Part shown: in pieces, positions 2,237 through 11,570 of the stretch
Position numbering within the stretch: position 1 is the first letter of the stretch
Layout: the number at the start of each line of letters is the position of its first letter
Assembly (NCBI GenBank): GCA_902760865.1
Contig: CACWID010000014.1
Span: forward strand, 1-61,051
DNA from: an uncultured Bacteroidales bacterium
GTDB taxonomy: Bacteria > Bacteroidota > Bacteroidia > Bacteroidales > Muribaculaceae
Length of the DNA stretch: 61,051 nt
Reading direction: 5' to 3'
Translations under genes and position numbers: made by a program
Notes under the pieces: generated by a model
The model's input: the letters and a program-made list of their open reading frames with translations, nothing else
Database searches by the model: none
What the model was told of the DNA's origin: nothing

Positions 2237-3367
2237 ATGGTTGAAATCCGAGAAATCCAACCCACCCGGCGCAACCTGCTCAAGTTTGTGCGTTTCCCCA
2301 TCGATGTCATCTACCGCGACAACGAGTACTACGTTCCGCCGCTGGTCACCGATGAAGTGAACACCCTGCGCCCCGACAAGAACCCGGCATTTGACTTCTG
2401 CGAGGCAGCCTATTTCATGGCATACCGTGATGGGAAAATCGTGGGCCGCATCGCAGGCATCATCAACCATCTGGTCAATGAGCGCATCAACAAAAAGGAG
2501 ACCCGTTTCAGTTACATCGACTTTATCGACGATGTCGAGGTCGTCGATGCCCTCATCGACGCCGTGACCCGTTGGGGCAAGAGCAAAGGCATGGAGCACC
2601 TGACCGGTCCCTTGAGCTTTACCGACATGGACCCTGAAGGCCTGCTCGTCGAGGGCTTTGACCGCATTGGCACAACAGGCGCCGTGTATAGCCACGCCTA
2701 TTATCACAAGCACTTGGAGCGCATGGGCTTTGTCAAGGATGTGGACTGGCTGGAGTTCCTGATCACCATCCCCAAACAGGTTCCCGAGAAGATGCAACGC
2801 ATCGCCAACCTGATAAGCGAACGCATGAATGTGACGACAATCAAGTACACCGACCGCAAGCAACTGGTCAAGGACTATGGTGACGCCATCTTCAAACTGA
2901 TCAATGTGGCCTATGACGAGTTGTTCGGCTACTCGCCCTTGTCCGACAAGCAGATCAAGCACTATATCAAGATGTACCTGCCCTTCCTGCCGCTCGACGA
3001 CCTGTCGATGGTCATTGACAAAGACACGCGCGAGCTCGTCGGCGTAGGCATCACCATACCCTCGATGTCCAAGGCGCTCATCAAGAGTCGCGGCCGCCTG
3101 TTCCCCATGGGCTGGAAATACTTGCTCGATGCCTTCAAGCACAATAATGTGGTGGATCTCATGCTCATTGCCGTCAAGCCTGAACTTCAGAACAAGGGTG
3201 TGAACTCACTCATCTTCAATGACCTCATCCCCGTGTTCAACAAGCATGGCTACACCCATGCCGAGAGCAACCACGAGCTGGAACTCAACTCCAAGGTGCT
3301 CAAGCAATGGGAATACTTCGAGTATGACCAGCACAAGCGCCGCCGCGCCTATACTAAAGAAATCTGA
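2237..3367 (+). CDS. GNAT-like N-acetyltransferase family protein
   Basis: A 376-residue soluble protein. Its overall character matches the long GNAT-like proteins annotated in Bacteroidales: a segment near 60-75 (AYRDGKIVGRIAGII) with the beta-strand pattern of an acetyltransferase fold, and a second block near 300-340 (VKPELQNKGVNSLIFNDL) resembling the acetyl-CoA-binding motif Q/RxxG. The acceptor is unknown. There is no signal peptide or membrane segment. The start follows a heptad tract. It is probably transcribed with, or just ahead of, pgi, 70 bp away. Confidence 0.7.
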   Translation: MVEIREIQPTRRNLLKFVRFPIDVIYRDNEYYVPPLVTDEVNTLRPDKNPAFDFCEAAYFMAYRDGKIVGRIAGIINHLVNERINKKETRFSYIDFIDDVEVVDALIDAVTRWGKSKGMEHLTGPLSFTDMDPEGLLVEGFDRIGTTGAVYSHAYYHKHLERMGFVKDVDWLEFLITIPKQVPEKMQRIANLISERMNVTTIKYTDRKQLVKDYGDAIFKLINVAYDELFGYSPLSDKQIKHYIKMYLPFLPLDDLSMVIDKDTRELVGVGITIPSMSKALIKSRGRLFPMGWKYLLDAFKHNNVVDLMLIAVKPELQNKGVNSLIFNDLIPVFNKHGYTHAESNHELELNSKVLKQWEYFEYDQHKRRRAYTKEI

Positions 3368-3392
3368 TTTGCACCAGAGCAAATCAAATTGA

Positions 3393-3417
3393 TTAGTGGT
3401 TAGTGATTAGAGAATTA
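3393..3417. repeat. Short 7-bp-period tract (TTAGNNN)
   Basis: TTAG occurs at 3393, 3400 and 3407, between the GNAT-like gene and pgi. Three units only. Confidence 0.5.
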
Positions 3418-3437
3418 ACTAAAAAACAATAATATTT

Positions 3438-4766
3438 ATGAACGACAAGATTCAAGTTATCAGCAAATATGCCCTTGACGGGAACGCCCTCAAGAGCGCA
3501 GAAGCCTTACGCATGACCGCCATGGCCGCCAAGCAGACGCTCGAGAGCGGCAGCGGAGCGGGCAACGACTTCCTGGGTTGGCTGCACCTGCCCAGCAGCA
3601 TCGATGAGCAGTTACTGCAAGACATCGAGCGCAGCGCCGCACAGCTTCGCAGCGAGTGCGAGTATGTCATCAGCATCGGCATCGGCGGCAGCTACCTGGG
3701 CGCCAAGGCCGTCATCGAGGCCCTGAGCGACCACTTTGCCGCCTATAAGAGCGGTAATGGCCCCAAGGTGCTGTTTGCCGGCAGCAACATCGGTGAGGAC
3801 TATCTCTATGACATGATGGACCTCGTGCGCGGACACAAGTTCGGCATCATCGTCATTTCCAAGTCAGGCACGACGACCGAGCCGGGCATCGCCTTCCGCA
3901 TCTTCAAGGACATGCTCGAGAAGCAGGAAGGCAAGGCATTTGCCCAGCGCAACATCGTCGCTGTGACTGACGCCCGCCGTGGCGCCCTGCGTGGTCTTGC
4001 CACCCAGGAGGGCTATGCTACCTACGTCATCCCCGACGACGTCGGTGGCCGCTTCTCGGTGCTCACCCCTGTCGGCCTGCTGCCCATCGCGGTGGCCGGG
4101 TTTGACATCCGCGCCCTCGTGGCCGGCGCCGTCGAGATGGAGAAGGAAGGCGACGAGCAGGTGATGCACTATGCCATCGCCCGCAACGCCCTGTACAAGA
4201 ACGGCAAGAAAATCGAGGTTCTCGCCAACTTCAGTCCCCGCCTTCACTTCATCGCCGAGTGGTGGAAACAGCTCTACGGCGAGAGCGAGGGCAAGGGCCA
4301 CAAGGGCATCTTCCCCGCCAGCGTCGATTTCACTACCGACCTGCACAGCATGGGCCAGATGATACAGGACGGCGAGCGCACGCTCTTCGAGACCGTCCTC
4401 AGCGTGGGCGACCAGCAGCATGAGGTCATCATCCCCCGCGACGAGGAGGACCTGGACGGCCTGAACTACATCGCCGGCAAGAACGTGGACTACGTCAACA
4501 AGATGGCCGAGCTGGGTACCCGCCTAGCTCACGTCGATGGCGGCGTGCCCAACCTGATCATCACCATGCCGACTGTCAATGAGCGCTATCTGGGCCAGCT
4601 GATCTACTTCTTCGAGAAGGCGTGCGGCGTGAGCGGCTACATCCTGGGCGTGAACCCGTTTGACCAGCCCGGTGTCGAGGCCTACAAGAAGAACATGTTC
4701 GCCCTGCTCGAGAAGCCCGGCCACGAACAAGCCACGGCCCAAATCAAAGCGAGACTCAAAAACTAA
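3438..4766 (+). CDS. pgi: Glucose-6-phosphate isomerase
   Basis: A 442-residue cytosolic enzyme that interconverts glucose-6-phosphate and fructose-6-phosphate, linking imported glucose to glycolysis. Visible family motifs are [18 protein letters not shown] near 75, the phosphate-binding stretch [14 protein letters not shown] near 140, and the C-terminal signature [20 protein letters not shown] near 400. The length fits the short clade of the family found in Bacteroidota and Firmicutes. It ends in a heptad tract and lies 67 bp before the CoA-transferase gene, in the same direction. Confidence 0.96.
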
Positions 4767-4833: not shown

Positions 4834-6333
4834 ATGATTTATCCGATTCTTTCGGCCGAGGAAGCCGCCGAATTTGTACAAAATGGCTTCACCGTAGGCG
4901 TTTCGGGCTTTACTTCACCCGGTTGCCCTCAAGCTGTGCCTGTTGCCATCGCCGAGCGCGCCAAGCGCGAGCATGAGGCAGGCCGCGAGTTCAAGATCAA
5001 CCTCTTCTCCGGCGCATCGACCAGCGACCACATCGACGGTGAGCTGACCCGTGCCGACGCCCTGAACTTCCGCACTCCCTATCAGTCACACCCCGACATG
5101 CGCAAGGCTATCAACGCCAATGCCATCCACTATAACGACCGCCACTTGAGCGAGCTGGCACAGGAGTTCCGCTATGGCTTCTACGGCAAGATGGACATCG
5201 CTATCGTCGAGGCCCAGAGCATCACCGACGACGGCGATCTCGTGCTGGGCACCTCGATGGGCAACACCGCCACTTGGCTCAAGATGGCCGACAAGGTGAT
5301 TGTCGAGGTCAACGACCAGATTCCCGAGACCATCCTCGGCATGCACGACGTCTATACGCCCAACGATCCCCCTTATCGTCGCGAGATCCCTATCTACACG
5401 CCTCACGATCGCGTGGGTACTCCCACCGCCCATGTTGACCCCAAGAAGGTCCTCGGCGTTGTCAAGACTTCGCTGCCCATCAGCAAGGAGGGTGCCTTCA
5501 CCCCCGTTGATGAGGTGACTGCCGCCATCGGCCGCAACGTGTGCGCCTTCCTCGTTAACGAGCTCAAGGCCGGCCGCATCCCCAAGGAGTTCCTGCCCCT
5601 GCAGAGCGGTGTGGGCAACATCGCCAACGCCGTGCTCGACGCCCTCGACAAGAGCGACGACATTCCTCCCTTTGAGATGTACACCGAGGTCATCCAGGAC
5701 AGCGTGCTCGAGCTCCTCGAGAGCGGCAAGTGTAAGTTTGCCAGCACCTGCTCGATGACCTTCTCCAGCGGTGCCATGACCGAGTTCTTTGAGAAGGGCG
5801 AGGCCCTGCACGGCAAGGTGCTCATGCGCCCCAGCGAAATCAGCAACAACCCCGAGGTGGTTCGCCGTCTGGGCGTCATCACGATGAACACCGCCATCGA
5901 GGCCGACATCTACGGTCACATCAACTCGACCCACGTCAGCGGTACGCGCCTGATGAACGGTGTCGGCGGCTCGGGCGACTTCACCCGCAACGCCTACATC
6001 AGCATCTTCCTGTGCCCGTCGATCAAGAAGGACGACTGCATCAGCACCATCGTGCCCATGGTTTCCTATCCTGACCACAACCCGCACTCGGTCGACATCA
6101 TCATCACCGACCAGGGTATCGCCGACCTGCGCGGCAAGGATCCCGTCCAGAGCGCCCACGAGATTATCGAGAAGGCCGCCCATCCCGTTTATCGTCCCCT
6201 GCTGCGCGAGTACCTCAGCCTCGCCAAGAAGGGCCACGTGATGATGAACCCGGACATCGCCTTCGCCATGCACAGCACGCTGATTCACGACGGCGACATG
6301 CGCAAGACCGACTTCGCCAAGTTCATGAAGTAA
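4834..6333 (+). CDS. Acetyl-CoA hydrolase/transferase family (succinyl-CoA:acetate CoA-transferase type)
   Basis: A 499-residue class I CoA-transferase. The family moves CoA between acetate and succinate, or hydrolyses acetyl-CoA; in a fermenter it couples acetate release to succinyl-CoA formation. Supporting blocks are GFTVGVSGFTSPGCP near 18, LQSGVGNIANAVLDAL near 256, and YTEVIQDS near 283, where E285 probably corresponds to the catalytic glutamate. A glycine-rich block, NGVGGSGDFTRNAYIS, lies near 378. The presence of sdhCAB in the same window fits a succinate/acetate metabolism. The last 15 codons and the stop are duplicated at 7918-7962. Confidence 0.92.
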   Translation: MIYPILSAEEAAEFVQNGFTVGVSGFTSPGCPQAVPVAIAERAKREHEAGREFKINLFSGASTSDHIDGELTRADALNFRTPYQSHPDMRKAINANAIHYNDRHLSELAQEFRYGFYGKMDIAIVEAQSITDDGDLVLGTSMGNTATWLKMADKVIVEVNDQIPETILGMHDVYTPNDPPYRREIPIYTPHDRVGTPTAHVDPKKVLGVVKTSLPISKEGAFTPVDEVTAAIGRNVCAFLVNELKAGRIPKEFLPLQSGVGNIANAVLDALDKSDDIPPFEMYTEVIQDSVLELLESGKCKFASTCSMTFSSGAMTEFFEKGEALHGKVLMRPSEISNNPEVVRRLGVITMNTAIEADIYGHINSTHVSGTRLMNGVGGSGDFTRNAYISIFLCPSIKKDDCISTIVPMVSYPDHNPHSVDIIITDQGIADLRGKDPVQSAHEIIEKAAHPVYRPLLREYLSLAKKGHVMMNPDIAFAMHSTLIHDGDMRKTDFAKFMK

Positions 6334-6363
6334 GCCTTTAGCTATTAGCCTTTAGCCTTTAGC
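6333..6363. repeat. 7-bp-period tract (AGCNNNN) at the CoA-transferase stop
   Basis: AGC occurs at 6333, 6340, 6347, 6354 and 6361. The first unit begins on the last base of the TAA stop codon. The tract is duplicated at 7962-7992. Confidence 0.8.
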
Positions 6364-6387
6364 TGGCATCCGCAGGACGCGGAATTA

Positions 6388-6448
6388 AAAACAAGAAATA
6401 CAAGAACAACAATCTTCACCGGATTGTACATCTTGTATTTCTTGTTTT
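6388..6448 (+). terminator. Strong hairpin terminator after the CoA-transferase gene
   Basis: Perfect 18-bp arms (AAAACAAGAAATACAAGA at 6388-6405 and its complement at 6431-6448) enclose a second stem (ACAATC/GATTGT). The right arm ends in TTTT. A near copy lies at 8018-8077. Confidence 0.8.
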
Positions 6449-6505
6449 CCCTTATTATTCAGCTTGACTCCAGACTGAAAAACGAAATGCCTACCGGAAC
6501 TCACG

Positions 6506-7711
6506 CTAGTATAGCAACCCGAACATCCACAATGGAATGCGGCTGCCATGTCCCACCTCGGTATCATCAACGGCTAAGTAACTGTCGGGTATATCGGCAA
6601 TCTGGTCAAAAGTCTTGGCCTTACCACCCACTTCGAACAGGTATTTGTCGTCGATGATGAAATCCCCCTTCTTGGGTGTCTTCACGCTATGATCAACCTG
6701 CAATTGGCTTAAGAAAAATGTTTCGCGTTCATTTCCCTTGTCAACTCTAGGACATAGGACGTGCATCAAATTAGTATTTCCCAAGAATATCTTATCAGGC
6801 TTGAACAGGTATTTATAATTCTTGATTTTGTTCGTGAGTAAATCAAGTATCTGTGCCTTATCCAAGGCATAGAGCATCTTCAAACCCAGATCATTATTTG
6901 TAGAGAGCTGTTTCCATAATTCTGACATACTGGGCTCAAAAGGCACCCTCTCGCTGATGATCATCAATAGCTTTCTGATTTTTAATATGGTTTCATATGA
7001 TACATTCTCTACCGCCGGCAAATCATTTTCTATCACCACCGAAACGGTTTCACGCAAGCGCAAAGGATAATCTTCACCCGATTCACGATAGAACGGATAA
7101 TAACCATGTTCCAGATAAGCCTCAAAACATGGTATGATCTTGATATCCCGTAGAACCTTCAGCGCAATACCGACATGATGCTGTAACAATTCTTCCAGGG
7201 CAATGGCATCAAGATGAATGCGACCCTCAAAATCAAGAAACTCACGAAATGATAACCCATAGAGGGTGTAAACTGTTTGTCGACGAGACAAATCCACCTT
7301 GGCATTATCCATAATCAACAACGAACTGCTGGTATAGACAATACTTATGTCGGGATGATTATCGTAGATGTTTTTCAGTGTTTCGGACCAATGTTCATAG
7401 CGATGCACCTCATCGAGGTAAATCCGCCTGATACCATGACGGTCGGCCCAACTGACCAAATCCATCAACGAGTGGGACGAGAACCACAGGTCATCAAGGG
7501 ATGCATAAAGCGTTTGATCAATATCATCATAATTCTCCAGAATGTGCTGTAGCAGCATAGTGGTCTTTCCAACACCTCGAGCTCCCCTGACTCCAATCAT
7601 ACGGGCATTCCAGTTAATCTTGGAATAGAGATAACGCTTGAAGCGCAAATTAATCTTTGCGATTCTACGGTGATAATTGTCAATCAGGGGTTGAAGATCT
7701 ATTGTTTCCAT
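6506..7711 (-). CDS. AAA-type ATPase (AAA_14/DUF4143-like)
   Basis: A 401-residue protein if translation starts at the ATG at 7711. An upstream extension to 7912 is open, but it runs through the operator-like dyads and is not protein-like. Walker A is GARGVGKT (43-50) and Walker B is IRRIYLDEVHR (95-105). A later TSSS stretch fits sensor 1, and the C-terminal third is nuclease-like in pattern (DFIIDDKYLFEVGGKAK). Proteins of this kind are common and often multi-copy in Bacteroidales, and their biological role is unsettled. The gene is AT-richer than its neighbours, opposes the CoA-transferase gene, and sits between two copies of that gene's 3' end, so it looks inserted. Confidence 0.85.
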   Translation of the reverse strand: METIDLQPLIDNYHRRIAKINLRFKRYLYSKINWNARMIGVRGARGVGKTTMLLQHILENYDDIDQTLYASLDDLWFSSHSLMDLVSWADRHGIRRIYLDEVHRYEHWSETLKNIYDNHPDISIVYTSSSLLIMDNAKVDLSRRQTVYTLYGLSFREFLDFEGRIHLDAIALEELLQHHVGIALKVLRDIKIIPCFEAYLEHGYYPFYRESGEDYPLRLRETVSVVIENDLPAVENVSYETILKIRKLLMIISERVPFEPSMSELWKQLSTNNDLGLKMLYALDKAQILDLLTNKIKNYKYLFKPDKIFLGNTNLMHVLCPRVDKGNERETFFLSQLQVDHSVKTPKKGDFIIDDKYLFEVGGKAKTFDQIADIPDSYLAVDDTEVGHGSRIPLWMFGLLY

Positions 7712-7751
7712 AAGCCAAATAGTTGATATTTCCAGCCGCAAAAATACACAT

Positions 7752-7802
7752 TTACATTTTGAAATGCAAAAAATATGGAGTTTTTTACATTTTAAAATGT
7801 AA
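7752..7802. promoter_or_regulatory. Twin operator-like dyads before the ATPase gene
   Basis: A perfect 18-bp palindrome, TTACATTTTAAAATGTAA (7785-7802), and a near copy, TTACATTTTGAAATGCAA (7752-7769), are spaced 33 bp apart, about three helical turns. They lie 41-91 bp upstream of the ATPase start. They look like a pair of binding sites for a dimeric repressor, possibly autoregulatory. Confidence 0.55.
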
Positions 7803-7917
7803 ATTCCACATCTTGACTGATAGATAGTACGATATAAAGGATGCCACATCTTTATAGTCGCCATAATCTCGTGGAGGACAGGAGAACAACCAATCGTTGA
7901 GCTACAAGTCATCTATT

Positions 7918-8081
7918 GACGGCGACATGCGCAAGACCGACTTCGCCAAGTTCATGAAGTAAGCCGTTAGCTATTAGCCTTTAGGCTTTAGCTGGCATCC
8001 GCATTCCTGCGGAATTAAAAACAAGAAATACAAGAACAACAATCTTCACTGGATTGTACATCTTGTATTTCTTGTTTCCCT
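7918..8081. repeat. Direct repeat copy 2
   Basis: Second copy of the CoA-transferase 3' end (45 identical bp including TAA at 7960-7962), heptad tract, small hairpin and terminator stem (8018-8077). No start codon or upstream coding sequence accompanies it. It ends at 8081, directly before the TTAA of the MITE. Confidence 0.93.
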
Positions 8082-8083
8082 CT

Positions 8084-8332
8084 TTAATGTGAGCTCGACG
8101 AAAATGCTAATTATCAATCAGCGCGTTAGCAACTCCCAACTCCTCCCCCGCCTGGGGGGAGGTGCCCGAAGGGCGGAGGAGGGGGAGCGATTAGAGGGGG
8201 TTGGGGGGCGTTGATGTCCCAAGAGTAAGTGCATTGAAGGTGAATCATACTCCTCCGGCGCTACGCGCCACCTCCCCTATCTTAGGGGAGGAATTGAGTA
8301 TCAGCAACTTATCTTCGTCGAGCTCACGTTAA
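8084..8332. mobile_element. MITE-like element, copy A
   Basis: A 249-bp element bounded by inverted ends TTAAYGTGAGCTCGACGAA (8084-8102 and, inverted, 8314-8332). The interior holds a GC-rich hairpin around CGCCTGGGGGGAGG, a GGGGGGCGTTGATG segment, CATACTCCTCCGGCG and CACCTCCCCTATCTTAGGGG. Reversed, it aligns end to end with copy B (23764-24122). It has no coding capacity and would need a transposase supplied in trans. Its right end supplies the stop codon of the next gene. Confidence 0.75.
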
Positions 8333-8790
8333 TCACCGGATTCTTCTCTCCAGAAAATGTAGTACTTTAACGTCACGGCATCATTGAGGTTGGCAGTGCC
8401 ATTAGGATTCAACGGGCAGCGGAGAAGCTTCACATAGCAAACGACGTTACCTTTCTGCTCGGGGTTCACATCCGCATAGTCCCGATACAGGCTGTCGCAG
8501 GTCGAGAGCATGGTTGCCACCTTGTTCCGATTACCTTTCTGCTGATCACTCTTGCGCACCGCCTCTTGCATGTGGTAGATGGTTCTGGACAAGCCGTCAA
8601 GCGTCGGATTAACCATCCCGCTTTCCGCCTCGTCGGCCGCCTCCCTCAGATGCAGTCTCACATCAGTCTGGATGTCTAAGTAGAAACTATAGTCATCACT
8701 GCCGACAACATCCTCCTTGTTGTCCCCGCATGAAGGGGCAACCAGCATCACGATAGCGAGCAACCACAGGTATTTCTTGATTGTATTCAT
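8329..8790 (-). CDS. Lipoprotein, N-module only (paralogue 4)
   Basis: A 153-residue lipoprotein with signal peptide and lipobox LVAPSC. Residues after the Cys match the N-terminal module of the proteins at 9038 and 11061: the block FYLDIQTDVRLHL, then GLSRTIYHMQEAV, CDSLYRDYADVNP and CYVKLLRCPLNPNG. The start at 8790 is chosen because the paralogue shares the leader TTTAGAAT(C/G)ATGAATACAATC. The frame ends WREESGD, and its TAA lies in the MITE end. The 169-residue paralogue continues 18 residues past EESG, so the insertion probably shortened this gene. Function unknown. Confidence 0.8.
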   Translation of the reverse strand: MNTIKKYLWLLAIVMLVAPSCGDNKEDVVGSDDYSFYLDIQTDVRLHLREAADEAESGMVNPTLDGLSRTIYHMQEAVRKSDQQKGNRNKVATMLSTCDSLYRDYADVNPEQKGNVVCYVKLLRCPLNPNGTANLNDAVTLKYYIFWREESGD

Positions 8791-8946
8791 CATTCTAAAC
8801 AATTAGGGTTAATACATCTTGCAAATAGGTTACACTCACGACAGGTCAAGCCCTCGTGATAAGTTTATATTGGTTAGACATAATTCACGCATAATCGTTT
8901 AATTATCCCAGTATTAGACATTCATCAACTACCGCTTTAGATGATT

Positions 8947-8987
8947 GAGGTGGCCCCCATCGCTTTGGTCCACGAGGGAACCACCTC
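8947..8987. other. Possible hairpin between lipoprotein genes
   Basis: GAGGTGG (8947-8953) pairs with CCACCTC (8981-8987) around a 27-nt loop. It could be a weak processing or termination structure after the fused lipoprotein gene. The 8791-9037 gap otherwise shows nothing recognisable. Confidence 0.25.
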
Positions 8988-9037
8988 ATACCTAGTAATC
9001 ACACTTGGGTGATTGCATGAAAAAGAATCTTACCTAT

Positions 9038-10189
9038 TTACTTGTCCTTCACGGGACGGATTGACATGTGCATTGCTCGCACGTAATCAACAAACACTGG
9101 GGTCAAGCCATCGCCATCATTGCTGTTGAATCTGAAGCACCAAGCTGTTACTACGCCTTCGTTAACGCCATAACCTCGTTGCTCGGCCGGGCTTGGAGTC
9201 ACGCAGCTGCTCGATGTCCAGTAATAGCCCCTTTCACCTACACCGTAAGGCCCCGCTTGGAAACGGTGAGTAGCGTTTACGTCATCGCCATACATTCCAG
9301 TCAGCGGCATGACGATGCTGTTGTCGTTGGGGCCGATGACCTCATACCACTTGATGTCTCCCCATGTTTGCAGTTTCCACTGGCATTGCTCGCACAACTC
9401 CTTGGCCTCGCTGTAACTGGGGATATGCCATCCTTCGCCCCAGTTCGCTGCCACTACGTCTAATGTTGTTTCGGCAATGTCGGCTGGCGGATTGTTGCCA
9501 CCATAGTTATTGGTGTTCCAAGTGTAGCCGTTGTCATTCCATCCAATACCTTGACCAGACCATAGCATGCCAGTAGGGTCTCCCCAAGCCAGGTGGGCAC
9601 CATAATTGCGAGGCAGTGTAGCACCTATGTTGCAATTGGCCCAAAGGACAGACAGGCCCAGATCAACAGCTTTGAGCGAATCTGGCTTGGCCAAATAATC
9701 GTCGGAAGACGAACCGCCATCGTTGCCGCCATTATTGCCGCCATATGGGTTTTCCCACCAAAAACTGTAGTAGCTTATCGGCTGAGCATCCTTGATGGTG
9801 CCATTGGGATATAAGGTACAGCGGATAAGCTTGACATAGCAGACGAGATAACGTTTGCTCATTGGGTTCATATCGGCGTAATTCCGATACAGGCTGTCTA
9901 AGGTTGTGAGTAGAGCGGCCTCCCTAACACCGTTATTACCTTTCATAGACTTACTCTCATTTACAGCCTGCTGCATATGATAGACGGTTCTAGATAAGCG
10001 ATCGAGTTCCGTACTTGTGGCCATTCCTTTCTCATCTTCGGCATTTTCCGATAGATGCAGCCTCACTTCGGTCTGAATGTCTAAGTAGTAATAATAGTCA
10101 CTACTTGTATTAACATCCTCGCTATCCTTGCAAGAGGACATGGCAACCAGCATGGCAGCAATAAGCAAATATTTCTTGATTGTATTCAT
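9038..10189 (-). CDS. Lipoprotein with N-module fused to a C-module (paralogue 3)
   Basis: A 383-residue lipoprotein (lipobox VAMSSC, Cys20). Residues 21-150 are the N-module shared with the 8329 and 11061 genes. A Gly/Asn/Ser linker follows near 155-167. Residues from about 175 (AVDLGLSVLWANCNIGAT) to the end (MSIRPVKDK) are a C-module shared with the 10232 gene. The C-module's VDLGLSVxWAxCNxGA...WGDPTG...WGEGWxxPS pattern resembles the Fibrobacter-major-paralogous type of domain that is widespread in Bacteroidales surface lipoproteins. It is probably surface- or outer-membrane-anchored. Ligand unknown. Confidence 0.85.
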   Translation of the reverse strand: MNTIKKYLLIAAMLVAMSSCKDSEDVNTSSDYYYYLDIQTEVRLHLSENAEDEKGMATSTELDRLSRTVYHMQQAVNESKSMKGNNGVREAALLTTLDSLYRNYADMNPMSKRYLVCYVKLIRCTLYPNGTIKDAQPISYYSFWWENPYGGNNGGNDGGSSSDDYLAKPDSLKAVDLGLSVLWANCNIGATLPRNYGAHLAWGDPTGMLWSGQGIGWNDNGYTWNTNNYGGNNPPADIAETTLDVVAANWGEGWHIPSYSEAKELCEQCQWKLQTWGDIKWYEVIGPNDNSIVMPLTGMYGDDVNATHRFQAGPYGVGERGYYWTSSSCVTPSPAEQRGYGVNEGVVTAWCFRFNSNDGDGLTPVFVDYVRAMHMSIRPVKDK

Positions 10190-10231
10190 GATTCTAAATA
10201 ATTAGGGTAAAAAATAAGTGGAGCGTACGTC

Positions 10232-11026
10232 CTACTTGTCGTGAACGGGGCGGATGGACATGTGGAAGGCCCGCAGGTGATTTACGAACATGCCCTGCAG
10301 CGACTGGAATTCAGGGACTTCCTGTACAAACCTGAATGCCCACGCCTGGATAACATCTGCATTGATGGGATAGCCACGCGATGCAAAATCATTGGTCAAA
10401 TTGCAGATGGACGAGGTCCAATAGAAGCCTGCAGTGTTCATGTGCAGTGGTCCCTCGTGAAAGCGACCGTCTTCACCCATCTCATCATCACCATAGATTC
10501 CGCACATGGGCATAATGATGCTGTTGCCGTTGGGGCCCGTCACTACGAACCACTTGGAACCATTCTCTTCGTGCATTTGCCAATGGCAGCTATTGGCCAA
10601 CTCTCGAGCCTCGGCCACAGACGGGGTGCGCCATCCCTCGCCCCAATGCACAGCTACCACATCTTGGTCAGTGCCACCGATTTCCTTAGTGGGATCCATG
10701 CCACCAAAATTGTTGGTATTCCAGGTGTAACCATTTTCATTATAGCCTATGCCTTGGTCAGACCACAATTTGCCTGTCGGGTCACCCCAGCCAAAATAAC
10801 CGCCATATTCTTTTGGCGCATCAGCTCCAAGGTTGCAACTAGCCCACTTGACTGATAGCCCCAGGTCAACAGCTTCGACACTTACAGGCAAATCAAGAGA
10901 ATAAACCGGAATCTTTTTCGGAATCATCAATCGATGCTGAGGAGAGTTCGGTTCGTCCTCATTTCCACATGCTGCAGCCATCAGCAGGATGGCAAGCGTC
11001 CCAAATAAGTAATAAATTGTTTTCAT
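10232..11026 (-). CDS. Lipoprotein, C-module only (paralogue 2)
   Basis: A 264-residue lipoprotein starting at the ATG at 11026 (MKTIYYLFGTLA); the open frame further upstream lacks a signal peptide at its start. The lipobox is LMAAAC. After a short spacer it carries only the C-module (VEAVDLGLSVKWASCNLGA to MSIRPVHDK) found in the second half of the 9038 protein, with similar motifs throughout. It lies 42 bp upstream of that gene, on the same strand. Confidence 0.85.
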   Translation of the reverse strand: MKTIYYLFGTLAILLMAAACGNEDEPNSPQHRLMIPKKIPVYSLDLPVSVEAVDLGLSVKWASCNLGADAPKEYGGYFGWGDPTGKLWSDQGIGYNENGYTWNTNNFGGMDPTKEIGGTDQDVVAVHWGEGWRTPSVAEARELANSCHWQMHEENGSKWFVVTGPNGNSIIMPMCGIYGDDEMGEDGRFHEGPLHMNTAGFYWTSSICNLTNDFASRGYPINADVIQAWAFRFVQEVPEFQSLQGMFVNHLRAFHMSIRPVHDK

Positions 11027-11060
11027 TGTTCTTTTTTTGTTAGGTTGAATATCTTCAGGT

Positions 11061-11570
11061 TTAGTATATATTGGTCGGATGACATATGGCAAGCCCTAAG
11101 TTAGGGATAATCATACCGGACTCCTCTCTCCAGAAATAGTAATACTTTAACGTGATGGCATCTTTGAGATTGGCGGTACCATTTGGATTAAGGGGACAGC
11201 GGAGAAGCTTAACGCAGCAAATGACATTTCCTTTTTGCTCGGGATACACTTCGGCATAGTCCCGATATAGACTGTCACAAGTAGTGACTAAAGTGGCCAC
11301 CTTATTCCGGTTACCTTTCTGATTTTCATTCTCGCGTATCGCCTTCTGCATGTGGTAGATGGTTCTGGATAAATGGTCAACCATTGGATTAACCATCCCG
11401 CTTTCATCTTCATCAGCAGCATCATTCAAATACAGTCTCACTTCGGACTTGATATCTAGGTAGTAAAAATAGTCATCACTATCATAAACATCCTCCTTGT
11501 CACCACATGAGGCAACCATCATTACCATGACGGGCAGAATCATCCAAAATAAAAATTTGCTAGTTCTCAT
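11061..11570 (-). CDS. Lipoprotein, N-module only (paralogue 1)
   Basis: A 169-residue lipoprotein (lipobox MVASC). It carries the N-module seen in the 8329 and 9038 proteins (YYLDIKSEVRLYL, HLSRTIYHMQKAI, CDSLYRDYAEVYP, CVKLLRCPLNPNG). Unlike the 8329 copy it has an 18-residue tail after EESG, ending HPTNIY. First of the four lipoprotein genes in transcription order. Function unknown. Confidence 0.8.
   Translation of the reverse strand: MRTSKFLFWMILPVMVMMVASCGDKEDVYDSDDYFYYLDIKSEVRLYLNDAADEDESGMVNPMVDHLSRTIYHMQKAIRENENQKGNRNKVATLVTTCDSLYRDYAEVYPEQKGNVICCVKLLRCPLNPNGTANLKDAITLKYYYFWREESGMIIPNLGLAICHPTNIY

Follow-up and report, generated by a model that had tools for sequence, protein, structure and literature searches.

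In a stretch of 61,051 nucleotides from the genome of an uncultured Bacteroidales bacterium (Muribaculaceae; GenBank assembly GCA_902760865.1, contig CACWID010000014.1), hereafter called the window, a gene encoding an ATPase of the AAA_14 family is located between two copies of the 3' end of an acetyl-CoA hydrolase/transferase gene (CoA-transferase, Table 1). The ATPase gene is an insertion, and empty sites for it exist in relatives. It was probably inserted as a single-gene fragment at the end of the CoA-transferase gene by a process of the host, with duplication of approximately 162 bp of the target. Insertions of this kind recur with different targets, and where an empty site was found the flanking repeats are of target origin.

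Results

The duplicated gene end and its empty sites

The two copies form a direct repeat of 162 and 163 bp, in which 155 of 162 aligned bases are identical and one column is a gap, with a start-to-start distance of 1629 bp. When the flanks of the ATPase gene were compared with each other, the match had an E value of ~4e-72. The repeat comprises the last 45 bp of the CoA-transferase gene including the stop codon, a tract of TTTAGCC-type heptads and a terminator-like hairpin, which confirms the duplication described in an earlier note on this DNA. The note had also stated that the coding part of the repeat is identical and that the non-coding part differs; the counts agree (0 substitutions in 45 bases and 7 in 117, respectively), but the contrast is not significant (P = 0.097).

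In the relative G007 (locus L087), the CoA-transferase gene of which is 99 % identical to that of the window, both window copies map to one stretch (6621-6778), and no match to the inserted DNA was found in the 10.7-kb locus. The empty sites that the earlier note had proposed to look for are thus present in the same genus, G007 having one copy and no ATPase match at this locus. A search of the genus for the ATPase (E ≤ 1e-40) gave a match in 37 of 101 genomes, and among the matches listed none was on the CoA-transferase contig of the 12 relatives with fetched loci. The nearest relatives of the ATPase (L042-L044, 73-74 % identical) adjoin other genes. The window copies are 95.7 % identical to each other and 90.8 and 87.6 % identical to the single copy in G007, and because they are closer to each other than to the G007 copy, the duplication is probably younger than the split from G007. 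In G019 (L093), the CoA-transferase match is followed, after approximately 83 bp, by a homologue of the convergent gene at 8329-8802 of the window. G018 (L089) seems, by eye, to have another ATPase-like gene directly downstream of its CoA-transferase gene, suggesting the possibility of a hot spot.

The cleanest case of insertion is L203 (genome G197), in which an ATPase gene lies between MacB-like and outer-membrane-channel-like genes (names by eye). Positions 1-1364 of this filled site align with 3359-1993 of L262, from the same genus, and positions 2593-3469 with 2098-1228, so that the two 106-bp copies fall on one 106-bp stretch of L262, a gene end. The insert (1365-2592; 1,228 bp) consists of the open reading frame (ORF) with 31 bp past its stop codon and 72 bp before its start codon. 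The copies map to a single place in eight of the nine relatives tested (L262-L270), only one copy being matched in L270. A strong match to the target gene was present in 19 of 20 genus members, the match in G208 being only 30 bp, and among the matches listed for these 20 a second piece of the gene end was found in G197 only. Identity is 89.6 % between the copies, and 81.1 and 82.1 % between the copies and L262. The end of the target stretch contains the 11-base word GATATGAATAA, which is also present in the 31 bp after the ATPase stop codon; this single anecdote fits joining by short homology.

Both copies at L053 map to approximately 2200-2269 of L280 (G063), where the genes on the two sides are homologous to the neighbours in L053. 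Among the seven relatives compared, which were drawn from a search of 100 genomes, L280 has both neighbours and a single terminator copy, L283, L284 and L285 have both neighbours and no copy, and three match the right-hand gene only. At L063, both copies map to 1928-1761 of L250 (G009). Filled and empty sites were thereby paired for the window (G007), L203 (L262-L269), L053 (L280) and L063 (L250). L197 was dropped as a clean case because the gene end in question is present in four pieces in its genome. At 26-617 of L280, on the far side of the same right-hand gene and approximately 2 kb from the empty site, lies a gene related to the L053 ATPase (74 % DNA identity).

Recurrence of flanking repeats at ATPase genes

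Flanking direct repeats (E < 1e-6 within 1.5 kb) were found at 7 of 46 ATPase loci, 45 of the genus and the window. The set was then enlarged by 80 loci from named genomes, and all called genes that were at least 200 amino acids long and had testable 600-bp flanks were compared. Repeats of at least 40 bits were present around 24 of the 141 ATPase-superfamily genes and 15 of the 832 other genes (odds ratio 11, p 5e-12); at 80 bits they flanked 15 of 141 and 7 of 832, respectively. Since some of the ATPase seeds had been picked after repeats had been seen in them, a second set of newly fetched loci, obtained with a Pfam DUF4143 search over 99 order-level genomes, was tested with cut-offs and seeds unchanged, and repeats were found at 15 of 67 ATPase genes and 5 of 116 others (p 3e-4). 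Genes were called by a simple longest-ORF rule and are not independent in either set: L044 and L107, both in the denominator of 141, are the same DNA, and some ATPases share one locus across relatives. L074, which has a strong repeat, was left out of the counts, its flank being too short for the 600-bp test. L129 was rejected as a target duplication, as its repeats look like a paralogous YjbR/MmcQ-like ORF, and it remains in the counts. Genes between copies of YjbR/MmcQ-like ORFs were seen in different genomes (L190, 510-2401, and L129, 3060-4837), as was a gene between two copies of an IS200-like ORF (L206, 367-2733; all names by eye).

According to an automatic rule, a copy was located inside the end of a neighbouring ORF in 9 of 39 ATPase repeats of at least 40 bits and in 4 of 20 repeats at other genes. 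The nine cases are the window, L063, L116, L127, L153, L177, L203, L109 and, weakly, L181. Single ATPase genes flanked by copies of a neighbour's end, for which the earlier note had suggested a search, were therefore found elsewhere, for example in L203, L116 and L127, the coding share of the repeat being 105, 160 and 103 bp, respectively. The repeat in L109 is the 5' end of the neighbouring gene, and some repeats, such as that of L053, are a terminator-like stretch only. The duplication is 50-205 bp long in 21 ATPase cases of at least 80 bits, a range that leaves out L190 and L206 (232 and 262 bp). The intact gene is found on either side of the ATPase, depending on the locus. No constant attachment-site (att) core was found across the insertions, the duplicated sequences differing (by eye) except in L121/L237 and in two pairs in L133.

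In L133, one 50-bp repeat is present in four copies (2270-2319, 3760-3809, 5776-5829 and 7282-7335), flanking two different ATPase genes. In both L103 (1528-2741) and L105 (2350-4076), an insert is flanked by copies of part of a small neighbouring gene, which is the same gene in the two loci; the insert is an unidentified ORF in the former and an ATPase_2/DUF234-like ATPase (by eye) in the latter. Four ATPase-superfamily genes are located close together on one strand of L171 (8517-15150).

Other cargo genes

For each of several Pfam families, the 30 best loci in the same order were examined for flanking repeats of at least 40 bits, with loci lacking an ORF over the expected interval dropped (DUF4143 5, RhuM 5, Fic 11, C5-methylase 2 and phosphoglucose isomerase, PGI, 2). 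Repeats flanked 10 of 25 DUF4143 genes, a panel that is part of the second set above, 6 of 25 RhuM genes and 4 of 19 Fic genes, and none of the 28 PGI genes; the differences from PGI gave p values of 2e-4, 0.008 and 0.02, respectively. The flanks are not tied to the ATPase, because RhuM and Fic genes also carry them, not significantly less often than DUF4143 (p 0.36 and 0.21; small samples). A RhuM-like gene between 201-bp repeats of 93 % identity adjoins an ATPase gene in L226 (4697-6778).

Boundaries of the shared unit

In homologous ATPases at different loci, the shared unit ends no more than 5 bp from the stop codon in four groups, namely L102 versus L103/L104/L105 (92-94 %), L082/L083/L084 (91-92 %), L149/L153/L157 (80-82 %) and L046/L128/L132/L133 (79-87 %). 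Its other end mostly lies 83-246 bp upstream of the start codon, and within approximately 19 bp of it in the L132 pairs. The sharp right end is not simply the result of faster divergence outside genes, because the alignment continues into the non-coding DNA upstream. Two other pairs share a unit that runs 64-71 bp past the stop codon, the extension being 64 bp in L121:9965/L156. L121:6329 and L237 share 1,325 bp at 91.5 % identity with direct repeats of approximately 70 bp at both ends, one of which is the dyad upstream of the ATPase itself and the other its duplicate after the stop codon. ATPases with such dyad repeats were seen in L121 (6329-7459), L237 (3483-4613), L156 (7215-8459), L166 (4402-5595) and L069 (2774-3898).

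The inserted DNA and its ATPase

The inserted DNA has a GC content of 0.414, compared with 0.537 in the window and 0.603 in the CoA-transferase gene. It carries, as the earlier note had stated, one AT-richer ATPase gene on the opposite strand with operator-like dyads of its own. The expectation of a single-gene cargo with no recombinase of its own was also borne out: no site-specific recombinase was recognised in the insert, nor any gene other than that of the ATPase. In the ORF list the ATPase spans 6506-7912, but aligned homologues begin at or near 7711. The protein scored 89.8 bits against AAA_14 (PF13173; gathering cut-off 27), which places it in this family, and had no hit to DUF4143 (PF13635) at E ≤ 0.001; five relatives from its own family had either no hit to DUF4143 or one below the cut-off. 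A partial match to the PADLOC profile PDC-S01 was obtained (1e-22, 78.7 bits, residues 35-309 against 16-264 of 375 profile positions). Other ATPases flanked by repeats matched PADLOC single-gene candidates strongly, L116 to PDC-S01 at 7.6e-167 and L127 to PDC-S27 at 3.7e-188.

The window ATPase has an archaeal/STAND-type ATPase fold and a putative PD-(D/E)XK-like C-terminal domain. The C-terminal 112 amino acids resemble Hjc, PspGI and other PD-(D/E)XK enzymes, all with weak Z scores (best 5.3; for Hjc Z 5.2, root-mean-square deviation 3.7, 72 aligned), and residues D350, E360, K366 and Q370 are conserved. Foldseek alone found no match to this domain with E ≤ 0.001, and a search of solved structures by sequence gave just weak local matches, to RecA and RNA-helicase chains.

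Table 1 Features of the CoA-transferase/ATPase region, in window positions
Feature	Position	Strand	Remarks
Acetyl-CoA hydrolase/transferase gene (CoA-transferase), intact	4834..6333	+	3' end is the duplicated target
Target copy 1	6289..6450	+	Still joined to the gene; comprises its last 45 bp, the heptad tract and a terminator-like hairpin
Terminator-like hairpin in copy 1	6388..6448		27-nt arms
Inserted DNA between the copies	6451..7917		1467 bp, GC 0.414
AAA_14 ATPase gene, 401 amino acids	6506..7711	-	PF13173, 1.9e-25
Two operator-like dyads	7750..7804		Just upstream of the ATPase start
Target copy 2	7918..8080	+	Detached gene-end remnant plus terminator-like hairpin
Terminator-like hairpin in copy 2	8019..8077		26-nt arms
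Downstream convergent gene	8329..8802	-	No Pfam hit; lipoprotein-like by eye

Several other repeats are present in or near this region. A dispersed intergenic repeat of 52 bp occurs at 226-277 and 8245-8296, 8 kb apart, with 98 % identity. Soon after copy 2, a 22-nt inverted repeat (8084-8105 and 8311-8332, 91 % complementary, 205 nt between the arms) could delimit a small intergenic insert. The stretch 8329-11570 contains tandem paralogues, lipoprotein-like by eye, with DNA stretches 73-80 % identical.

Discussion

Insertion with long target duplication is favoured because the two copies resemble each other more than either resembles the single G007 copy, the targets and lengths vary and no recombinase was recognised. 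A single-gene fragment, made up of the ATPase gene and its own promoter and operator, would have entered the CoA-transferase gene at its 3' end and terminator, with duplication of approximately 162 bp. As this duplication includes the last part of the coding sequence, the copy still attached to the gene would preserve both the gene and its terminator, and the other would persist as a remnant on the far side of the ATPase. No known enzyme is common to the cargo genes, from which we infer that the joining machinery is borne by the host and not encoded by the cargo. Most likely, short homologies would join the incoming DNA to a gapped or forked target at two offset points, the stretch between which would be copied twice; the length of the duplication would vary, as the offset could span tens to hundreds of bases. 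The flanking repeats would then give RecA a simple route to precise loss of the insert, or to its spread into the corresponding site of a different strain. The insertion may have been kept as the gene is useful or selfish, possibly anti-phage.

Several observations weigh against this explanation. Most ATPase genes (117 of 141) have no repeat at the cut-off used, which requires decay of the repeats or another route. Just 9 of the 39 repeats carry an ORF end, and the rest could include dispersed intergenic repeats. L206 and L190 were rejected as target duplications, their flanks being IS200-like or paralogous genes, and they are still counted among the 15 of 67. The G019 site is not a pristine empty site, since its gene end is altered and the match ends 15 bp before the end of the gene. 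Unassigned sequence is present between the ATPase stop codon and the repeat (55 bp in the window, 31 bp in L203), and the copying of the ATPase's own operator downstream of the gene in L121/L237, L156, L166 and L069 is not explained by target duplication. L264 is nearly as close to the L203 copies (88.6 and 87.6 % identity) as these are to each other, and the age of the L203 duplication relative to the nearest split is for this reason less clear. C5-methylase genes, which mark the restriction-modification (R-M) systems known for this mode of insertion, had repeats in 0 of 28 cases, although a single-gene test would miss repeats around multi-gene systems. The generality beyond ATPases is judged from flank counts, the empty sites compared being those of ATPase insertions.

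It is rather doubtful that single small genes in Bacteroidales, several of which are defence candidates (AAA_14/DUF4143 and DUF234 ATPases, Fic and also RhuM), move as a class of minimal promoter-operator and ORF units ending at the stop codon, with target duplications of approximately 50-200 bp, the ATPase-nuclease itself carrying out the insertion in the ATPase families and the operator serving as its end-binding site. It is likewise unlikely that the window ATPase is a self-mobile element, nicking the target at two offset points through its PD-(D/E)XK-like C-terminal domain and inserting the gene that encodes it, with fill-in leaving the duplication. The unit would then be the operator and the ORF, with the stop codon as its right end, as suggested by the four homologue groups in which the boundary is no more than 5 bp from that codon; the weak resemblance of the C-terminal domain to Hjc and PspGI with its four conserved residues, and the 1,325-bp unit of L121/L237 with its terminal direct repeats, point the same way. 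However, the shared unit extends beyond the stop codon in two pairs, no inverted repeat of the region pairs the two ends of the insert, and Foldseek alone gave no significant match for the C-terminal domain. Transposition specific to the ATPase is further weakened by the same flanks at RhuM and Fic genes, which were not significantly less frequent there, although the samples are small.

That the flanks are accidental, the ATPases lying in terminator-rich intergenic regions with dispersed repeats or having undergone a chance local duplication, is very improbable. Pieces of the heptad tract, approximately 30-55 bp long, do match many places in the same genome (25 matches in all), and ATPase genes are found between convergent neighbours somewhat more often than other genes (54 of 194 compared with 175 of 913, p 0.008). 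With 19 of 90 candidates scored, however, none of the own-genome matches beyond the window's two copies extended into the hairpin or past the last 6 bp of the gene. In addition, the copies contain the coding ends of neighbours (the window, L063, L116, L127, L153, L177 and L203, with a 5' end in L109), the empty sites hold one copy, and the PGI control gave none in 28. Dispersed repeats as the main cause were rejected for the window and the cases with empty sites, on the basis of the coding-end content and the empty sites themselves, and chance local duplication was rejected by the recurrence. The earlier note would have preferred a chance duplication if all relatives had the same arrangement and the ATPase were never flanked by duplicated gene ends elsewhere; the relatives are not all alike, and flanked ATPases do occur elsewhere.

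Genomic islands at tRNA and other gene ends rebuild the end of the host gene. The window locus resembles them in that the host gene is kept whole with a direct repeat on the far side, and differs in that no integrase was recognised, no constant att core is present, the target is not a tRNA gene and the insert is a single gene. Least probable is the reading put forward in the earlier note, a circle carrying the ATPase and a copy of the gene end that recombined, homologously or site-specifically, with the end of the host gene and restored this gene in the manner of such islands: the geometry is compatible, the repeats would permit excision as a circle and the copies differ at 7 sites, but the duplicated sequence (3' end, 5' end or terminator) and its length (50-205 bp) vary between insertions, no recombinase was recognised in the insert, and a circle would each time have to carry the very gene end that it later met, or stem from the same site in another strain. 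A circle may have been an intermediate, but nothing requires it.

Insertion with long target duplication was reportedly described by Nobusato et al. in 2000 (Gene 259:99) and by Furuta et al. in 2010 (NAR 38:2428). In the available excerpts of the papers cited in this paragraph, it is attributed to the Kobayashi group and to R-M genes (PMC1643837, PMC3031569, PMC3874152, PMC4978471, PMC2749054), is recognised by comparing related genomes (PMC1643837) and involves duplications 'in the order of 100 bp' (PMC3874152). The link with R-M genes appears there as a frequent association and was not taken here as defining, and a Bacteroides homologue of an R-M system is named in this literature. The insertions described here are alike in the filled and empty sites, the target origin of the repeats and their variable length near 100 bp (162 bp in the window, 106 bp in L203). 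They are unlike those in the excerpts in their cargo, which is a Bacteroidales ATPase, with similar flanks at RhuM and Fic genes and none at 28 C5-methylase genes, instead of R-M genes. The excerpts obtained in an open-access literature search contained no report of long target duplication for ATPase genes, and the window locus would, by sequence comparison, represent this known mode of insertion with another cargo. Among the Arabidopsis transposed genes, direct repeats of host sequence are described, often at an empty orthologous site, repeats longer than 30 bp being present in 9 of the 25 such genes whose donor site is known and in 2 of 102 controls (PMC2869330, in excerpt). These are likewise moved single genes with repeats of host sequence, in a eukaryote and with movement within one genome.

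The architecture of an ATPase with a PD-(D/E)XK domain is that given for PDC-S01 in an excerpt of PMC12988326, where PDC-S01 ranks fourth among the commonest defences of prokaryotes; in a bovine rumen survey PDC-S01 is the most frequent individual defence locus (PMC13356809). The window protein may share this architecture with PDC-S01 and PDC-S27 as they are described there, although it matches PDC-S01 only partly. The excerpts give no account of the way in which these genes are inserted.

The results suggest a route by which small candidate defence genes may be acquired gene by gene, often into gene ends, with the neighbouring gene left intact and no visible transposase. The flanking duplication would be a cheap marker of single-gene acquisition, requiring only sequence, and could reveal further candidate genes. 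With a group of genomes containing many apparent events and nearby empty sites, the mechanism of insertion with long target duplication becomes testable.

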